A stretch of DNA of 11,045 bases from Lachnospiraceae bacterium. Lineage in GTDB: Bacteria > Bacillota > Clostridia > Lachnospirales > Lachnospiraceae. Under the pieces are notes generated by a model. It was not told the DNA's origin. It saw only the letters and a program-made list of their open reading frames with translations, and searched no databases. Location: the NCBI GenBank assembly GCA_017477005.1, contig JAFUXY010000159.1:1-11045 (forward strand), given 5' to 3'. The position numbers were made by a program, and so were the translations under genes. Below, piece after piece: positions 3,746 to 9,998 of this stretch (positions are counted from its first letter, which is position 1; each line of letters begins with the position of its first letter).

Positions 3746-3774
3746 GTGACTTTCCATTGAAAAAATGGTAGAAT
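3746..3774 (+). promoter_or_regulatory. Promoter of the ligase-iorA-iorB operon
   Basis: GTGACT (3746-3751) is followed after 17 bp by an extended -10, TGG-TAGAAT (3766-3774). Transcription would start near 3781, giving a leader of about 28 nt before the ATG at 3809. There is no room for an attenuator, in contrast to the downstream ligase gene. Confidence 0.55.
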
Positions 3775-3808
3775 GGCATGCATTGACATAATAGGAAGGA
3801 GAGAATCA

Positions 3809-5443
3809 ATGGCTATTGTGGATTTATTGGAACGCAACAGCAAGCTCTACGGCAATGAGGTAGCGCTTGTGGAGATCAATCCCGAAGTGCATGAAGATCG
3901 CCCGGTTTTTTGGAAGGAATACGAGTTGATCCAGCCTACGTCCAAGACGTTTTATCGCAGGGAGATTACCTGGTCGGTCTTCGATGAGAAGGCCAACCGT
4001 GTGGCCAACCTTCTGATTTCGCACGGTATAAAACGAGGACAGAAATGCGCCATTCTGCTGATGAACTGTCTGGAATGGCTGCCCATCTATTTTGGAATTT
4101 TGAAATCCGGTGCGATTGCCGTCCCCTTGAATTTCCGTTATACATCGGAAGAAATTGATTACTGTCTGCAATTGGCGGACGTGGATGTCTTGTTCTACGG
4201 GCCGGAGTTCATCGGACGAGTGGAAAATATTGCCTACAAGCTCAGGGACAAGATGCTGTTTTATTTTGTGGGAGATTCCTGCCCGGATTATGCGGAGGAC
4301 TATTTTCGGCATGCGGGTAATGCGTCTAGCTCTGCGCCGAAGGTTTTGATCGAGGGCACCGATCTTGCCGCGATCTATTTTTCTTCCGGTACGACGGGCT
4401 TTCCGAAGGCCATCCTGCACAGGCATTCCGCCCTTATGCAAAGCGCGCGTATGGAAGCACGGCATCATGAGACCACGCACGAGGACGTTTTTTTGTGCAT
4501 CCCTCCGCTTTATCATACCGGAGCCAAAATGCACTGGTTTGGCTCTCTGTACAGTGGAAGCCGGGCGGTTCTTCTGAAAGGAAACACGCCGGAGTCTATC
4601 TTGAAGGTGGTTTCGACGGAAGGGTGTACCATCGTCTGGCTGTTGGTGCCGTGGGCACAGGACATCCTGTTTGCCCTGGACCGGAAGGAGCTTTCACTTT
4701 CGGATTTCCAGACCTCCCAGTGGCGGCTGATGCATATCGGTGCGCAGCCGGTGCCGCCCAGTCTGATCAAGCGGTGGCAGGGCTACTTCCCGAATCAGAA
4801 ATACGATACCAACTACGGGTTGTCCGAGTCCACCGGCCCTGGCTGTGTCCATCTCGGGATGGAGAACATACACAAGGTAGGCGCCATCGGTGTTCCTGGC
4901 TATGGCTGGGAGACAAAAATCATTGGTGAAGACGGACAGGAGGTGGCGCAGGGCGAAGTCGGAGAGCTTTGCGTGAAGGGGCTGGGCGTCATGGTGGAAT
5001 ATTACCATGACCCGGAAGCCACGGCAGAGGTCATGGACGGCGAATGGCTGAAGACCGGGGATATGGTGCAGCAGGACGCGGACGGCTTTATCTACTTGGT
5101 AGACCGGAAAAAGGATGTGATTATTTCCGGCGGAGAAAACCTGTATCCGGTGCAGATCGAGAGCTTTCTTTCGGCTATGCCAAAGGTGCATGACGTGGCG
5201 GTGATCGGATTGCCCGATCCCCGGCTCGGAGAAATTGCGGCCGCTATTATCCAAGTCAAAGAGGGGATGGAGTGTACAGAAAACGAAATCAATCATTTCT
5301 GTCTGGACCTGCCCCGCTACAAGAGACCGCGCAAGATTATTTTTGCCGATGTTCCCAGAAACGCAACGGGAAAGATTGAAAAACCGAAGCTCCGCGAGAT
5401 TTACCATGCGACGCGTTTGGTGGATGAGCAGAGCAAGCAGTAG
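3809..5443 (+). CDS. AMP-forming acyl/aryl-CoA ligase (ANL superfamily)
   Basis: This 544-residue adenylate-forming enzyme would activate a carboxylic acid to an acyl-AMP and then to the CoA thioester. The phosphate-binding loop is SSGTTGFPK (192-200). The adenine-binding motif is YGLSEST (336-342). The ribose-binding TGD has D418, followed by the hinge VDRKKD (431-436) and GGENLYPVQIE. The catalytic C-terminal lysine is K522 in NATGKIEK. All are intact. ATG 3809 is preferred over the in-frame ATG at 3773. It has an AGGAAGGAG site 5 nt upstream, and the earlier ATG would overlap the -10 box. The stop codon TAG merges into the ribosome binding site of iorA, 14 nt before its ATG, so the genes form an operon. 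Linkage to IorAB suggests an aryl acid such as phenylacetate or indoleacetate as substrate, but the family also includes fatty-acid ligases. Substrate is inference. Confidence 0.88.
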   Translation: MAIVDLLERNSKLYGNEVALVEINPEVHEDRPVFWKEYELIQPTSKTFYRREITWSVFDEKANRVANLLISHGIKRGQKCAILLMNCLEWLPIYFGILKSGAIAVPLNFRYTSEEIDYCLQLADVDVLFYGPEFIGRVENIAYKLRDKMLFYFVGDSCPDYAEDYFRHAGNASSSAPKVLIEGTDLAAIYFSSGTTGFPKAILHRHSALMQSARMEARHHETTHEDVFLCIPPLYHTGAKMHWFGSLYSGSRAVLLKGNTPESILKVVSTEGCTIVWLLVPWAQDILFALDRKELSLSDFQTSQWRLMHIGAQPVPPSLIKRWQGYFPNQKYDTNYGLSESTGPGCVHLGMENIHKVGAIGVPGYGWETKIIGEDGQEVAQGEVGELCVKGLGVMVEYYHDPEATAEVMDGEWLKTGDMVQQDADGFIYLVDRKKDVIISGGENLYPVQIESFLSAMPKVHDVAVIGLPDPRLGEIAAAIIQVKEGMECTENEINHFCLDLPRYKRPRKIIFADVPRNATGKIEKPKLREIYHATRLVDEQSKQ

Positions 5444-5457
5444 GAGGAAATGCGATT

Positions 5458-7212
5458 ATGAAAGAACTCATGTTGGGCAACAAGGCGGTTGCCCGTGGTC
5501 TCTATGAGGCCGGTTGTGAATTTATTTCCAGCTATCCCGGCACGCCCAGCACGGAGATTACGGAAGAGGCTGCCAAATACGATGAGATTTATTGCGAATG
5601 GGCGCCAAACGAAAAAGTGGCGATGGAGGCGGCCTTCGGCGCGGCTTTGGCTGGCCGTCGTTCCTTTACGGGGATGAAGCATGTGGGCTTGAACGTGGCG
5701 GCGGATCCGCTATACACCATGTCCTATACCGGAATCAACGCCGGTTTGGTCGTGGGCGTGGCGGACGATGCGGGCATGCATTCCTCTCAAAATGAGCAGG
5801 ACAGCCGCCACCATGCTATCGCGGCGAAGCTGCCCCTGCTCGAGCCGTCGGATTCCGCCGAGGCCAGAGAGTTCGCGATGGCGGCCTACGAGCTTTCTGA
5901 GCGTTTTGACACGCCAGTGCTGCTGAAGATGTGTACCCGCGTGGCGCATTCCCAGTCGGTGGTGGAGCCGAAGGAGCGGACGCTGCATCGAAAGGATTAT
6001 GAGAAGGATATCGCGAAATACGTGATGATGCCGGGGAACGCCATACGGCGCCATCCTATTGTGGAGGAACGCACGGCGCGTCTTGCGGAATTTGCGGAAG
6101 ACTGCCCGTTCAACAGGGTGGAGATGGGCGGTACCGAAAAGGGGATCATTACCGATTCCACTTCTTATCAATATGTGAAGGAAGTATTTGGAGACAGCGT
6201 GTCTGTCTTGAAGCTGGGGCTTGTCAATCCGCTGCCCAAGAAGCTGATCAAAGACTTTGCGGCAAAGGTGGATACGCTCTACGTCGTAGAAGAACTGGAT
6301 CCCATCATCGAAAACCATGTCCGCTCTTTGGGGCTTGAAACCCATGGAAAAGACCTCTTGCCTATCTGCGGGGAGTTCTCGCAGAATTTGGTGGCCAAGG
6401 CTTTGGGGGGCGAGGTGCATGAAGGCGAGGCGTTGGACGACCCCATCCCGCCGCGTCCTCCTGTGATGTGCGCTGGTTGTCCCCACCGCGGTCTGTTTTA
6501 TACGTTGAAAAAGCTGGGCTGCACGGTCTTGGGAGATATTGGATGCTACACGTTGGGTGCCGTGGCTCCGCTTGGCGCGATGGAGATGACGCTTTGCATG
6601 GGAGCCTCTGTTTCCGCCATCCATGGCTTCAACAAGGCGCTGGGGGCGGAGAGCGAAAACCGTACCGTGGCGGTGATCGGGGATTCCACCTTTATGCATT
6701 CGGGCATGACCGGGCTGGCGGACGTGGCCTACAATCAGTCCAATTCCACGATTATTATTTTGGATAATTCGATTACGGGAATGACCGGGCATCAGCAGAA
6801 TCCCACCACGGGGCTCAACCTTCGTGGAGACCCTGCCGGAAAAATTGATTTGGAAGCGCTGTGTCGGGCTTTTGGATTCGAAAATGTCAGCGTGGTGGAT
6901 CCGTATGATCTGGAGGAATGCGAGACAGTTATTTCAAGAGAACTCGCGAAAAACGAGCCATCCATGATTATCTCCCGTCGTCCCTGCGCGCTGTTGAAAT
7001 ATGTGAAGCACAAACCGCCTGTGTCGGTTGATCCGGAAAAATGCCGTTCGTGTAAAAGCTGCATGAAAATCGGGTGTCCGGCTATCTCGATGAAGTCTGT
7101 CGAGGGAGAAGAGAAGAAAAAAGCCACAATCGATGCCACGCTCTGCGTCGGCTGTGGAGTCTGCGAACAGTTGTGTCCGTTTGACGCGTTTGTGGAAGGA
7201 GGCGAAGAATAA
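5458..7212 (+). CDS. iorA: Indolepyruvate:ferredoxin oxidoreductase, alpha subunit
   Basis: IorA is the thiamine-pyrophosphate and iron-sulfur subunit of the enzyme interconverting arylpyruvate plus CoA and aryl-acetyl-CoA plus CO2 with ferredoxin. The 584-residue protein begins with the family signature LGNKAVARGLYEAG...SSYPGTPSTE. MCAGCPHRG is at 337-344. The thiamine-pyrophosphate segment is GDSTFMHSGMTGLADVAYNQS (from 408) with LDNSITGMTGHQ. Near the C-terminus there are two [4Fe-4S] clusters. One is CxxCxxCx4CP at C529, C532, C535 and C540; the other is CxxCxxCxxxCP at C563, C566, C569 and C573. It has a GGAGG site. Its TAA overlaps the iorB ATG by one base (TAATG), implying translational coupling. 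The enzyme is oxygen-sensitive, fitting an anaerobe. The reaction direction depends on context: degradative in amino-acid fermenters, or reductive carboxylation in aryl-acid salvage. Confidence 0.96.
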   Translation: MKELMLGNKAVARGLYEAGCEFISSYPGTPSTEITEEAAKYDEIYCEWAPNEKVAMEAAFGAALAGRRSFTGMKHVGLNVAADPLYTMSYTGINAGLVVGVADDAGMHSSQNEQDSRHHAIAAKLPLLEPSDSAEAREFAMAAYELSERFDTPVLLKMCTRVAHSQSVVEPKERTLHRKDYEKDIAKYVMMPGNAIRRHPIVEERTARLAEFAEDCPFNRVEMGGTEKGIITDSTSYQYVKEVFGDSVSVLKLGLVNPLPKKLIKDFAAKVDTLYVVEELDPIIENHVRSLGLETHGKDLLPICGEFSQNLVAKALGGEVHEGEALDDPIPPRPPVMCAGCPHRGLFYTLKKLGCTVLGDIGCYTLGAVAPLGAMEMTLCMGASVSAIHGFNKALGAESENRTVAVIGDSTFMHSGMTGLADVAYNQSNSTIIILDNSITGMTGHQQNPTTGLNLRGDPAGKIDLEALCRAFGFENVSVVDPYDLEECETVISRELAKNEPSMIISRRPCALLKYVKHKPPVSVDPEKCRSCKSCMKIGCPAISMKSVEGEEKKKATIDATLCVGCGVCEQLCPFDAFVEGGEE

Positions 7213-7784
7213 TGTCGGTAAAAAATGTCATGATCGTCGGCGTGGGAGGACAGGGAAGCCTGCTGGCCAGCAAGCTTTTGGGACATCTTCTTTTGGCGAG
7301 CGGCTACGATGTCAAGGTGTCTGAGGTACATGGGATGTCGCAGAGAGGCGGCAGCGTCGTGACCTATGTGCGTTATGGCGAGAAGGTCTATTCGCCTGTG
7401 ATCGATGAGGGCGAGGCGGATTGCATCGTTTCGTTTGAGCTTTTGGAAGCGGCGCGTTGGATGCGTTTTTTGAAAAAGGATGGAGTGATCATTACAAATA
7501 CACAGACCATCGACCCGATGCCGGTGATCACTGGCACGGCGGAATATCCCGAGAATCTGGAAGAAAAGATGAGGGCAAAAGGGATAAACGTGGATGCCAT
7601 GGACGCCCTGTCTCTCGCCCAGGAAGCGGGTTCGGCCAAGGCGGTCAATCTGGTGCTCTTGGGAAGGCTCTCCAAATATTTTGAGGAGATTCCGGCCGAG
7701 AGGTGGCAGGAAGCTATCGAGGCCTGCGTACCCGCCCGGTTTTTGGAACTGAATAAAAAGGCTTTCGCGCTGGGGAATGGGTGA
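7212..7784 (+). CDS. iorB: Indolepyruvate:ferredoxin oxidoreductase, beta subunit
   Basis: This 190-residue protein is the gamma-domain-type partner of IorA, of typical length for the family. It starts with the glycine-rich GVGGQGS (10-16) and carries the conserved EVHGMSQRGGSVVTYVRYG segment (from residue 38). Both match the pyruvate/ketoisovalerate oxidoreductase catalytic domain (POR family). The ATG overlaps the iorA stop codon by one base, and GGAGG lies just upstream inside iorA. No convincing terminator follows: GAGA (7783-7786) and TCTC (7799-7802) before TGTTTTT give only a 4-bp stem. Some transcripts may therefore run on into the attenuator leader. Confidence 0.95.
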   Translation: MSVKNVMIVGVGGQGSLLASKLLGHLLLASGYDVKVSEVHGMSQRGGSVVTYVRYGEKVYSPVIDEGEADCIVSFELLEAARWMRFLKKDGVIITNTQTIDPMPVITGTAEYPENLEEKMRAKGINVDAMDALSLAQEAGSAKAVNLVLLGRLSKYFEEIPAERWQEAIEACVPARFLELNKKAFALGNG

Positions 7785-7812: not shown

Positions 7813-7841
7813 TTGACAAGAAGAAATAGTTGTGGTAATGT
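7813..7841 (+). promoter_or_regulatory. Promoter of the attenuator leader and the paaK-type ligase / ACT genes
   Basis: A consensus -35 TTGACA (7813-7818) is followed after 17 bp by TAATGT (7836-7841), preceded by an extended TGG element. GGTAAT (7834-7839, spacing 15) is an alternative -10. Transcription would start near 7848, giving a leader of about 220 nt to the terminator. The -10 is imperfect, so confidence rests on the perfect -35 and the placement. Confidence 0.55.
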
Positions 7842-7911
7842 TTCGGACATGCTGCAGCTTTAGTCACAAATTATTCACAGATTGTTCACTTGATGTAAGG
7901 ATTATTATATT

Positions 7912-8001
7912 ATGAACCGTATCCAACATTTCGCTTTCAACTTTAGCTTTTACTTTTTTAGCTTTACTGACGCAGACAGTAGGGTTGATTTGTTATGCTA
8001 A
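7912..8001 (+). CDS. Phe-rich attenuator leader peptide (29 aa)
   Basis: The ORF encodes 29 residues from ATG 7912 to TAA 7999-8001, with AAGGA (7897-7901) 10 nt upstream. Residues 7-18 read FAFNFSFYFFSF: seven Phe (two TTC, five TTT) and one Tyr codon in twelve. The rest is of ordinary composition (begins MNRIQH, ends DLLC). Such a run is characteristic of leader peptides whose translation senses charged tRNA-Phe, as in the E. coli pheA and pheST leaders. It is likely translated only for its regulatory effect. The Phe codons coincide with the 5' arms of hairpins P1 and P2, and the stop codon falls at the 3' end of the antiterminator 5' strand, as expected for ribosome-mediated attenuation. 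It is too short for standard gene calling. Confidence 0.85.
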   Translation: MNRIQHFAFNFSFYFFSFTDADSRVDLLC

Positions 8002-8033
8002 AGTTTGAGAGTACGAAAGGGTATTCCTAAATG

Positions 8034-8067
8034 GGCGTGGCACTTCAACCGGTGCCGCGCCTTTTTT
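8034..8067 (+). terminator. Intrinsic terminator of the Phe attenuator
   Basis: GGCGTGGCAC (8034-8043) pairs with GTGCCGCGCC (8052-8061) over 10 bp with one G-U, closing an 8-nt loop, and is followed at once by six T (8062-8067). It lies 33 bp after the leader-peptide stop and about 145 bp before the downstream ligase gene. It would also stop read-through from iorB. Confidence 0.9.
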
Positions 8068-8210: not shown

Positions 8211-9515
8211 ATGGCAGAGCATTATTATCAACCGGAGATCGAGACGATGCCCCGGGAGCAGATGAAGGAACTGCAGGACGAGAAACTTCGGGTGCAGGTG
8301 CAGCACGTATGGGACAACGTGCCGTATTACCGAAAGAAAATGGAGGAAAAGGGCGTTTCCCCGGAGGACATTCATGGACAGGAGGATTTGAAAAAACTGC
8401 CGTTTTTATCCAAAGCAGATCTGCGAGAGGCCTATCCCTATGGCTTGATGGGAAAGCCCTTGAAGGACTGCGTGCGTATTCAATCTACTTCCGGGACCAC
8501 GGGAAAACGAGTGGTGGCGTTTTATACACAGCACGATCTCGATCTGTGGGAGGATTGCTGTGCGAGAGCCATTTGCGCGGCTGGCGGAACCGATGAGGAT
8601 GTTTGCCAGGTTTCGTATGGTTATGGGCTGTTTACGGGAGGACCGGGATTGAATGGCGGCAGCCACAAGGTAGGCAGCTTGACGATTCCGACAAGCTCCG
8701 GCAATACCGAGCGCCAGATTATGTTCATCCAGGATTTGTCGGCGACCATTCTTTGCTGTACGCCCAGCTATGCCGCCTACCTTGGCGAGACCATGGCGGA
8801 AATGGGGTTGAAGCCCGAGGATATTCCGCTCAAAGCAGGCATATTCGGCGCTGAAGCATGGAGCGAGGAAATGCGTCGGGATATCGAGAATACCTTAGGG
8901 ATAAAGGCCTATGATATTTATGGTCTGACAGAGTTGTCCGGGCCGGGCGTGGCTTTTGAGTGCTCCGAACAGAACGGCATGCACATCAATGAGGATCATT
9001 TCATTGCAGAGATCATCGATCCGGAAACGGAGGAAGTTCTGCCGGAGGGCAGCGAGGGAGAGCTTGTCTTTACTGCTATTGATAAGGAAGCCTTCCCGAT
9101 GATGCGTTATCGTACGAGGGACATCTGTTCCCTTTCACGCAAGCCCTGCTCATGCGGCCGCACCCATGTGCGTATGGCCAAGCCGAAGGGACGTTCGGAC
9201 GACATGCTGATCATCCGTGGCGTCAACGTCTTCCCGTCGCAGATCGAGACCGTTCTTTTGAACAATGGTTATCCTGCCAATTACCAGATCATTGTGGATC
9301 GTGTCAGAAATACGGATACACTGGACGTGCAGGTGGAGATGACTCCGGAGATGTTCACGGACAATATCGGAGAAATTGAAGAGAGGCAGAAAACTCTCGT
9401 AGAGGGCTTGAAATCTATGCTGGGTCTGAAGGCGAAGGTATCTTTGGTGGCGCCGAAGACCATCGCTCGCAGCGAAGGAAAAGCTGTCCGCGTGATAGAT
9501 AAGCGAAAGATATGA
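8211..9515 (+). CDS. Phenylacetate-CoA ligase family protein (PaaK-type)
   Basis: The 434-residue length and motifs match PaaK-type AMP-forming aryl-CoA ligases, which turn phenylacetate, ATP and CoA into phenylacetyl-CoA. The phosphate-binding loop is STSGTTGKR (92-100). YGLTELSGPGVAFEC (237-251) is the PaaK form of the adenine motif. RTRD (301-304) gives the ribose-binding Asp D304. The hinge and C-terminal domain begin at GRSDDMLIIRGVNVFPSQIE (from 327), and the C-terminal catalytic lysine is likely K424 in SEGKAVRV. CSCGR (313-317) is also usual in the family. ATG 8211 has AAGGAGG 6 nt upstream. The gene lies beyond a Phe-responsive attenuator and 48 bp before the ACT gene, so the pair is probably cotranscribed. 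Phenylacetate or a related aryl acid is the likely substrate, by family and by the attenuator. Indoleacetate or hydroxyphenylacetate remain possible. Confidence 0.92.
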   Translation: MAEHYYQPEIETMPREQMKELQDEKLRVQVQHVWDNVPYYRKKMEEKGVSPEDIHGQEDLKKLPFLSKADLREAYPYGLMGKPLKDCVRIQSTSGTTGKRVVAFYTQHDLDLWEDCCARAICAAGGTDEDVCQVSYGYGLFTGGPGLNGGSHKVGSLTIPTSSGNTERQIMFIQDLSATILCCTPSYAAYLGETMAEMGLKPEDIPLKAGIFGAEAWSEEMRRDIENTLGIKAYDIYGLTELSGPGVAFECSEQNGMHINEDHFIAEIIDPETEEVLPEGSEGELVFTAIDKEAFPMMRYRTRDICSLSRKPCSCGRTHVRMAKPKGRSDDMLIIRGVNVFPSQIETVLLNNGYPANYQIIVDRVRNTDTLDVQVEMTPEMFTDNIGEIEERQKTLVEGLKSMLGLKAKVSLVAPKTIARSEGKAVRVIDKRKI

Positions 9516-9563: not shown

Positions 9564-9998
9564 ATGAGCGTCAAACAGATTTCTGTTTTTTTGGAAAATC
9601 GGCCTGGAACATTGTACAACCTGACAAAAACATTGGCGGACGGGGGCATAGACCTCCGCGCCATGAGCGTGGCGGAAACGAAGGATTTCGGCATTGCCCG
9701 GATGATCGTAGATGATTTGGACAAGGCGGCCACCGTGCTGAAGGAAGCCGAATTCGTGAACTCCCTGATGCCTGTAATCGCTGTGGCGGTGGACGATGTC
9801 AAGGGGGGGCTGGCGCGCGTGCTGGATGAATTTGCCAAAGCCGATGTGAATGTGGAATATATGTATTCCGCTTTGGCATCCAAGGCCACCGGCCAGGCGT
9901 ATATGATCATGCGGGTAACGGACACGGAGGCGGCTGAAAAAACGCTCTCCGATATGAACGTGAGGCTGGTTCGTCAGGAAGAATTGGCGGAAATGTGA
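9564..9998 (+). CDS. Tandem ACT-domain protein (amino-acid sensing partner of PaaK-type ligase)
   Basis: The 144 residues form two ACT domains, small ligand-binding modules that commonly bind amino acids. The first (about 1-70) has ENRPGTLYNLTKTLADGGI, with the canonical turn PG at 14-15. The second (about 71-140) has DDVKGGLARVLDEFAKADVNVEY, where GG replaces PG. No catalytic domain is attached. Such stand-alone ACT proteins are often encoded next to PaaK-type ligases and IorAB in anaerobic bacteria and archaea. A role as a Phe or aryl-acid sensor or regulatory subunit is inferred, not shown. The start has AAAGGAGG (9547-9554) 9 nt upstream. It follows the ligase gene by 48 bp with no promoter or terminator seen between. 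Confidence 0.88.
   Translation: MSVKQISVFLENRPGTLYNLTKTLADGGIDLRAMSVAETKDFGIARMIVDDLDKAATVLKEAEFVNSLMPVIAVAVDDVKGGLARVLDEFAKADVNVEYMYSALASKATGQAYMIMRVTDTEAAEKTLSDMNVRLVRQEELAEM

Follow-up and report, generated by a model that had tools for sequence, protein, structure and literature searches.

A leader with clustered phenylalanine codons and the layout of a ribosome-mediated attenuator precedes paaK in a Lachnospiraceae bacterium and has relatives before pheA, aroF and a trpB-like gene

The leaders of pheA, pheST and trp in Escherichia coli are ribosome-mediated attenuators of proteobacteria. The locus described here shares with them clustered sensor codons, three mutually exclusive pairings and an intrinsic terminator before the first gene, but it comes from a different bacterial group, its target paaK lies outside the shikimate pathway, and the sequence reaches the cut-off of no leader family in Rfam. 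It can also be compared with Phe T-box leaders, in that the charging of tRNA-Phe would be sensed and three T-boxes precede paaK itself; T-boxes, however, bind the tRNA directly and without a leader peptide. In Firmicutes, leader-peptide attenuators of histidine genes have been discussed in relation to T-boxes that control these genes elsewhere; judged by the accessible parts of these papers, they share Gram-positive leader-peptide attenuation with our locus and differ in their leaders and in their targets, which are histidine genes (PMC9413887, PMC2965389). The uORFC-13-1 motif of Acholeplasma is similar in that an upstream ORF whose U run codes for Phe precedes aroF and a terminator, and attenuation was hypothesised for it; it differs, in the part of the source at hand, in being reported from Acholeplasma and environmental sequences only and before aroF only, a distinction drawn from the description (PMC8632094). 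In the genome paper of Geobacter metallireducens, iorAB-paaK is treated as a biosynthetic operon, as in our interpretation, and its conserved 5' sequence is described only as a possible promoter or riboswitch; the operon is listed there under tryptophan, not Phe, and a leader peptide is mentioned nowhere in the accessible text; the two are set apart here by description (PMC2700814).

The window, that is, the whole stretch of DNA analysed here, is a contig of 11,045 nt from a Lachnospiraceae bacterium, and the genome that it belongs to is 76% complete. All features given below lie on its forward strand. The regulated gene, paaK (8211..9515), encodes a phenylacetate-CoA ligase-like protein that scores 508.7 bits with TIGR02155, below the equivalog cut-off of 646.3, and is followed by a gene for an ACT-domain pair protein (9564..9998; PF19571, ACT_8), presumably the second gene of the unit. 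Upstream are the genes of the presumed pathway partners, iorA (5458..7212; TIGR03336 over cut-off) and iorB (7212..7784; NF005325 over cut-off), for the alpha and beta subunits of an indolepyruvate:ferredoxin oxidoreductase. An AMP-binding acyl-CoA ligase gene (3773-5443) adjoins iorAB immediately on its 5' side, so that iorAB is flanked by two different acyl-CoA ligase genes.

The leader peptide ORF MNRIQHFAFNFSFYFFSFTDADSRVDLLC occupies 7912..8001 and comprises 29 codons plus TAA. Seven Phe codons (starting at 7930, 7936, 7942, 7948, 7954, 7957 and 7963) and one Tyr codon (7951) fall within twelve consecutive codons (7930..7965), exactly as the preliminary description had claimed. The ribosome binding site attributed to the ORF there can be recognised as well: the candidate, AAGGA (7897..7901), read from the sequence, lies 10 nt 5' of the ATG and is modest. 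The ORF had further been placed between a promoter and a strong terminator, and this arrangement also held. On its 5' side is a promoter-like TTGACA-17-TAATGT (7813..7841), with 9 of 12 consensus matches as a raw match count, and on its 3' side an intrinsic terminator (stem-loop 8033-8062). Both boxes recur with identical sequence and spacing ahead of the paaK leader of the related genome G172. A separate promoter scan did not list the site at 7813 and gave as its sole forward-strand site 7885-7913, overlapping the ribosome binding site; at the locus L116 the promoter script returned no site, and TTGACA-17-TATTAT is visible by eye farther upstream.

A chance origin of the Phe cluster is unlikely. 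When the intergenic region was dinucleotide-shuffled and both strands were searched, a short ORF with at least seven Phe codons in twelve arose in 5 of 5000 shuffles, and one with at least five in 356 of 5000. A survey of short ORFs of 15-50 amino acids on both strands of 107 paaK-type loci (the window and L002-L107; 1,262,238 nt) yielded 6948 such ORFs, only two of which had seven Phe in twelve, namely the leader of the window and the paaK leader of G053; six others had six.

RNA 7958-8067 can form three mutually exclusive pairings. Hairpin 1:2 (7958..7988), the anti-antiterminator, has a 5' arm at 7958-7969, which overlaps the last of the leader's Phe codons, and a 3' arm at 7977-7988. The 5' strand of the antiterminator, region 2 (7983..7999; GGUUGA followed by UGUUAUGCU), ends at the stop codon of the leader (7999-8001); its 3' strand (8034..8050) consists of the 5' arm plus the loop of the terminator, and a spacer hairpin (8003..8032, ends approximate) is enclosed between the two strands. 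The intrinsic terminator, a stem-loop at 8033-8062 followed by a T run, covers 8033..8067 and stands ahead of the first structural gene; terminators are present in the other loci, too. An antiterminator exclusive with both the terminator and the hairpin overlapping the sensor codons was found in the window and in nine relatives.

As long as the RNA stops short of the 3' arm of the terminator, the antiterminator was the minimum-energy fold in all six loci tried, and the minimum-energy folds at full length contain the terminator and not the antiterminator. When the 5' part of the full-length RNA was masked, the antiterminator was the best fold at three of nine start points for the window and at one of nine for G172, and at no start point tried for G053, G159, G382 and G233. 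Since the full-length folds favour the terminator, read-through would depend on co-transcriptional order.

This layout is that of a ribosome-mediated attenuator, and from it we infer how stalling, masking and read-through may proceed. With Phe-tRNA plentiful, the translating ribosome would reach the stop codon at 7999 and cover region 2 (7983-7999), the terminator (8033-8067) would form and paaK would be off. With Phe-tRNA short, the ribosome would stall in the Phe run (7930-7965) and mask the 5' arm of hairpin 1:2 (7958-7969), leaving region 2 to pair with 8034-8050, including the terminator loop, so that paaK and the ACT gene would be transcribed. A shortage of Phe would in this way switch on the assimilation of phenylacetate: PaaK would activate phenylacetate, IorAB would carboxylate phenylacetyl-CoA to phenylpyruvate, and a transamination would yield Phe. 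We regard it as highly probable that the element is a transcription attenuator of paaK-ACT following the trp/pheA logic, which senses charged tRNA-Phe and presumably serves phenylacetate assimilation.

In total, 15 loci in one bacterial family were assembled: four before paaK, four before pheA, six before aroF and one before a trpB-like gene. When 397 genomes of the family were searched at the DNA level, three convincing matches emerged besides the window, in G053 and G172 before paaK and in G159 before the trpB-like gene. The leader regions of the window and G053 are 77% identical over 141 columns, and the paaK genes downstream of them are different. A search of 397 genomes with an exact terminator pattern recovered G053 and G159 only and was too strict. 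The covariance model R1, built from the window, G053, G172 and G159, matched ten genomes, namely the four training genomes, two new real ones (G382 and G233, both aroF) and four chance ones. With R2, the four genomes of the genus of G172 added G696 (paaK; MKQYTANSFWFFFSFSFTGEDGKVSLLC) and G698 (aroF); the corresponding search in the genus of G053 covered G053 alone. The model R3, made from eight sequences and run on 388 family genomes at E <= 0.01, matched 20 genomes, of which six were training genomes, seven held new loci and seven were chance. The new loci lie before pheA (G085, G139, G355, G197) and aroF (G122, G223, G245), and all seven have an aromatic leader; the other seven matches outside the training set have neither a leader nor an aromatic gene. 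As the RNA models begin at window position 7957, thus without the start codon and the first five of the seven Phe codons, the presence of aromatic leaders at 7/7 pheA and aroF matches supports the attenuator. Clustered codons for the end product occur in a short ORF at all 15 loci, where the aromatic leader ORF also served to separate real matches from chance ones. Among the target genes, paaK was identified by similarity and pheA, aroF and trpB-like by family models, with the dehydratase at L179 slightly below its NCBIfam cut-off.

Several candidates were set aside. L146-L149, L184-L189 and L191 are chance matches, either terminators or, for L148, coding sequence. In the window's own genome, L138 (E 0.006) is a hairpin that resembles a terminator and lacks a leader, and two more matches in that genome had E values of 4-5. 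Searching 334 genomes of the order with R2 gave matches in 16 genomes besides the window's, none with an aromatic leader before an aromatic gene. L153 (G598), from another family of the order, was left out of the locus count because its duplex failed the shuffle test (matched by 257 of 1000 shuffles). It is a candidate branched-chain leader, rich in Ile, Leu and Val, with the start MLNFNFAIVIISIINLIIID and a strong terminator before an acetolactate synthase-like gene, and is not of the same RNA class as the window. Two genomes of another family share an identical stretch of about 60 nt, ACTAAAGTATTTTATTTACCCCTAGTAGAACTAGGGGTTTTGTTAAGCTAAAGCATCC, near contig starts (L150, G619:C53:81-181; L161, G609:C12:97-186), perhaps a repeat or mobile element.

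The codons of the leaders track the gene that follows: mainly Phe before paaK and pheA, Tyr plus Phe before aroF and a Trp triplet before the trpB-like gene, a match that for paaK assumes a role of PaaK in Phe synthesis. The four paaK and four pheA leaders hold five to seven Phe codons each. Tyr codons number 4, 2, 4, 4, 5 and 2 in the aroF leaders and 1, 0, 0, 1, 1, 1, 0 and 0 in the paaK and pheA leaders, an excess in aroF with an exact one-sided p of 0.0003, uncorrected for kinship. Three Trp codons stand side by side in the G159 leader, MKNIRIANLFWWWRFTEKQ, against none or one in every other leader; this locus (L118) combines a Trp-codon leader and the same RNA scaffold with a TIGR01415-type TrpB-like gene. 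By these Tyr, Phe and Trp counts the paaK leaders group with the pheA leaders.

The antiterminator, which the preliminary description had not included, was found here, and its pairs covary. The duplex of the window has -20.3 kcal/mol, equalled by one of 1000 shuffles. With regions 2 and 3 mostly picked by hand, ten of the 15 loci (window, G053, G172, G159, G382, G233, G223, G085, G355 and G197) have a duplex that no more than 10 of 1000 shuffles reached. It is weak or unsupported in the other five relatives, with 18-21 shuffles per 1000 for G139, 33 for G245, 49-51 for G698, 56 for G696 and, according to the region setting, 53 or 414 for G122. Automatic anchoring of the regions agreed with the hand-picked loci (L153 being outside the set) and misplaced L178, L180 and L182 (117, 260 and 202 per 1000).

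For the covariation table, loci and register were chosen by hand and G698, G122, G245 and G139 were left out; the table omits a bulged base in G233 and, in G159, the sixth pair, two pairs of rows are identical, and for G172 the string search landed on a different copy at distance 946, the true pair being the one in the duplex test. In this table the helix that joins region 2 to the loop side of the terminator is paired in 47 of 47 cells across eight paaK, trpB and aroF loci, with double-sided changes at five of six positions, and in 18 of 18 cells across three pheA loci, with double-sided changes at two of six. The tabulated partner bases are unpaired in the terminator at 6/6 bases in the window, 6/6 in G053 and 5/5 in G159, and at three or four bases in five other loci; in the three pheA loci no such base is unpaired. 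Since the partner bases of those eight loci lie wholly or partly in the terminator loop, the terminator stem does not explain their pairing; in pheA they lie within the stem, and part of the covariation there could be due to the terminator alone.

The claim that a Phe attenuator stands before paaK-ACT has thus gained three more paaK leaders and eleven leaders of pheA, aroF and trpB-like genes, with the ORF, the exclusive pairings, the compensatory changes and the matching of codons to genes computed across loci. Its distribution over paaK genes is uneven. The check proposed in the preliminary description, whether orthologous upstream regions carry a Phe-rich short ORF, gave a mixed outcome: one is present at G053, G172 and G696, but of the named paaK loci (the best 80 of 591 confirmed) 77 could be inspected upstream, and none of these had one with at least five Phe in twelve codons within 900 nt 5' of paaK, L047 offering only 448 nt. 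Nor did R3 match before paaK in any of these 77, its only three matches in named loci (E 0.44-0.98) lying elsewhere. In a sample of 60 genomes of the family, PaaK of at least 69% identity occurs in twelve and the leader in two of these, the window's genome and G053. The gap between iorB and paaK, 426 nt in the window, is at most 154 nt in 41 of the 51 named loci in which it could be measured.

In three of the 80 named loci, all from other Clostridia, an Rfam T-box lies directly upstream of paaK (L023:2672-2935, L027:2681-2943, L030:2676-2938) and ends about 60 nt before it. The alignment places GAAG-UUC-A at the specifier position in all three, and by alignment and T-box anatomy we take UUC to be a Phe codon. 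The three belong to one PaaK clade (support 0.851). Because these 3/80 loci carry an apparently Phe-specific T-box, the absence of the leader elsewhere looks like a regulatory difference. Two different RNA sensors thus link paaK to Phe-tRNA, which argues that IorAB-PaaK assimilates phenylacetate into Phe.

A midpoint-rooted FastTree phylogeny of 109 PaaK sequences grouped the proteins of G053, G172 and G696 with L087 (support 0.999) and that of the window with L008, L054, L068 and L079 (support 0.775). Judged from these sequences, the leader may have become attached to more than one paaK gene, or paaK may have been replaced behind the leader; either would fit, and an assembly error in the fragmented genome is a possible source of the mismatch between leader and paaK.

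Other explanations of the element have to be weighed against the attenuator. The Phe-rich ORF could be no more than a run of T-rich codons, as seven Phe in twelve do turn up in 5 of 5000 shuffles, but the conservation in front of a different paaK in G053 (77% over 141 columns) and the recurrence of the same RNA class with other aromatic codons before other aromatic genes refute this comparatively, and its probability is negligible. A functional small peptide as the product of the ORF, with a terminator that serves only to end iorAB transcription, is very improbable. A C-terminal tail common to the four paaK leader peptides, T-x-x-D-x-[RK]-V-x-L-x-C, would suit such a peptide, yet the tail overlies RNA stems and is missing in the aroF, trpB-like and pheA leaders, in which aromatic codons and pairing persist; a promoter-like site between iorB and the leader, and the opposite strand of the upstream gene in G172, speak against a mere iorAB terminator. 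We give even less credit to a leader that binds a protein or ligand (riboswitch, T-box or RNA-binding protein) and contains the Phe-rich ORF incidentally. Elsewhere in the Clostridia paaK does have T-boxes upstream, but no Rfam family reached its cut-off in the window or its 14 relatives, the T-box model RF00230 gave no match in the window, the two sub-threshold matches there (ncr1241 and sbrA, both E 0.8) fall far short of their cut-offs, and the codons track the target gene.

The remaining alternative accepts the Phe attenuator but lets PaaK and IorAB degrade Phe to phenylacetate. IOR enzymes act in arylpyruvate oxidation, and a Bacteroides IOR was reported, in the accessible part of the study, to turn Phe into phenylacetate (PMC13285125). 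Expression at a shortage of Phe-tRNA, as attenuation would give it, however, has the wrong sign for degradation and fits synthesis; the same RNA class stands before pheA, aroF and a trpB-like gene; and the T-boxes before paaK elsewhere are read as Phe-specific. AMP-forming ligases, as far as the same source was available, favour acyl-CoA synthesis (PMC13285125). We therefore consider degradation unlikely and retain the attenuator of a synthetic route.

Precedents for the synthetic direction can be cited from parts of several papers. For Bacteroides, IOR together with an AMP-forming arylacetate-CoA ligase was proposed in 2026 to be possibly biosynthetic, and whether this pair makes or breaks aromatic amino acids in gut anaerobes was described as an open question (PMC13285125). 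A review reports that in a methanogen indolepyruvate oxidoreductase serves to make aromatic amino acids out of aryl acids (PMC3462420), and in the rumen Phe can come from phenylacetate (PMC7356843). As a warning case, codon mutations in the ilvB leader of Streptomyces were, in the portion consulted, without effect (PMC1262725). Prephenate dehydratase (PDT) was also considered: G053 and G060 gave no PDT match, and in the window's genome, 76% complete, the only one falls within a protein resembling a lipoprotein. In G172, however, a prephenate dehydratase gene coexists with the leader-paaK arrangement, so that the idea of a route replacing pheA holds in part only. PF00800 prephenate dehydratase domains with a lipoprotein-like N-terminus, an unusual place for this domain, were seen in L174 (G000:C144:318-857) and L175 (G061:C14:1152-1691).

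The placement had been thought possibly new, and this impression stands, since none of the papers among the matches listed deals with an attenuator or a T-box of paaK, in a search with subscription journals mostly outside it. A wider reading, to which we give a little better than an even chance, is that the loci form a new RNA class, in which one scaffold with Phe, Tyr plus Phe or Trp codons places pheA, aroF, a trpB-like gene and paaK under the control of the cognate aminoacyl-tRNA, that IorAB-PaaK is a starvation-induced route to Phe, and that the leader sits on paaK genes of different descent. With such a class, the leader-peptide attenuators of Firmicutes, of which we found few in print, would come to include those of pheA, aroF, a trpB-like gene and paaK, with sensor codons that change on a common RNA scaffold. 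Phenylacetate is a metabolite of gut and rumen, and a switch that turns on paaK upon Phe starvation, together with the apparently Phe-specific T-boxes before paaK in other Clostridia, would be regulatory evidence for the synthetic direction of the IOR and ligase pair.
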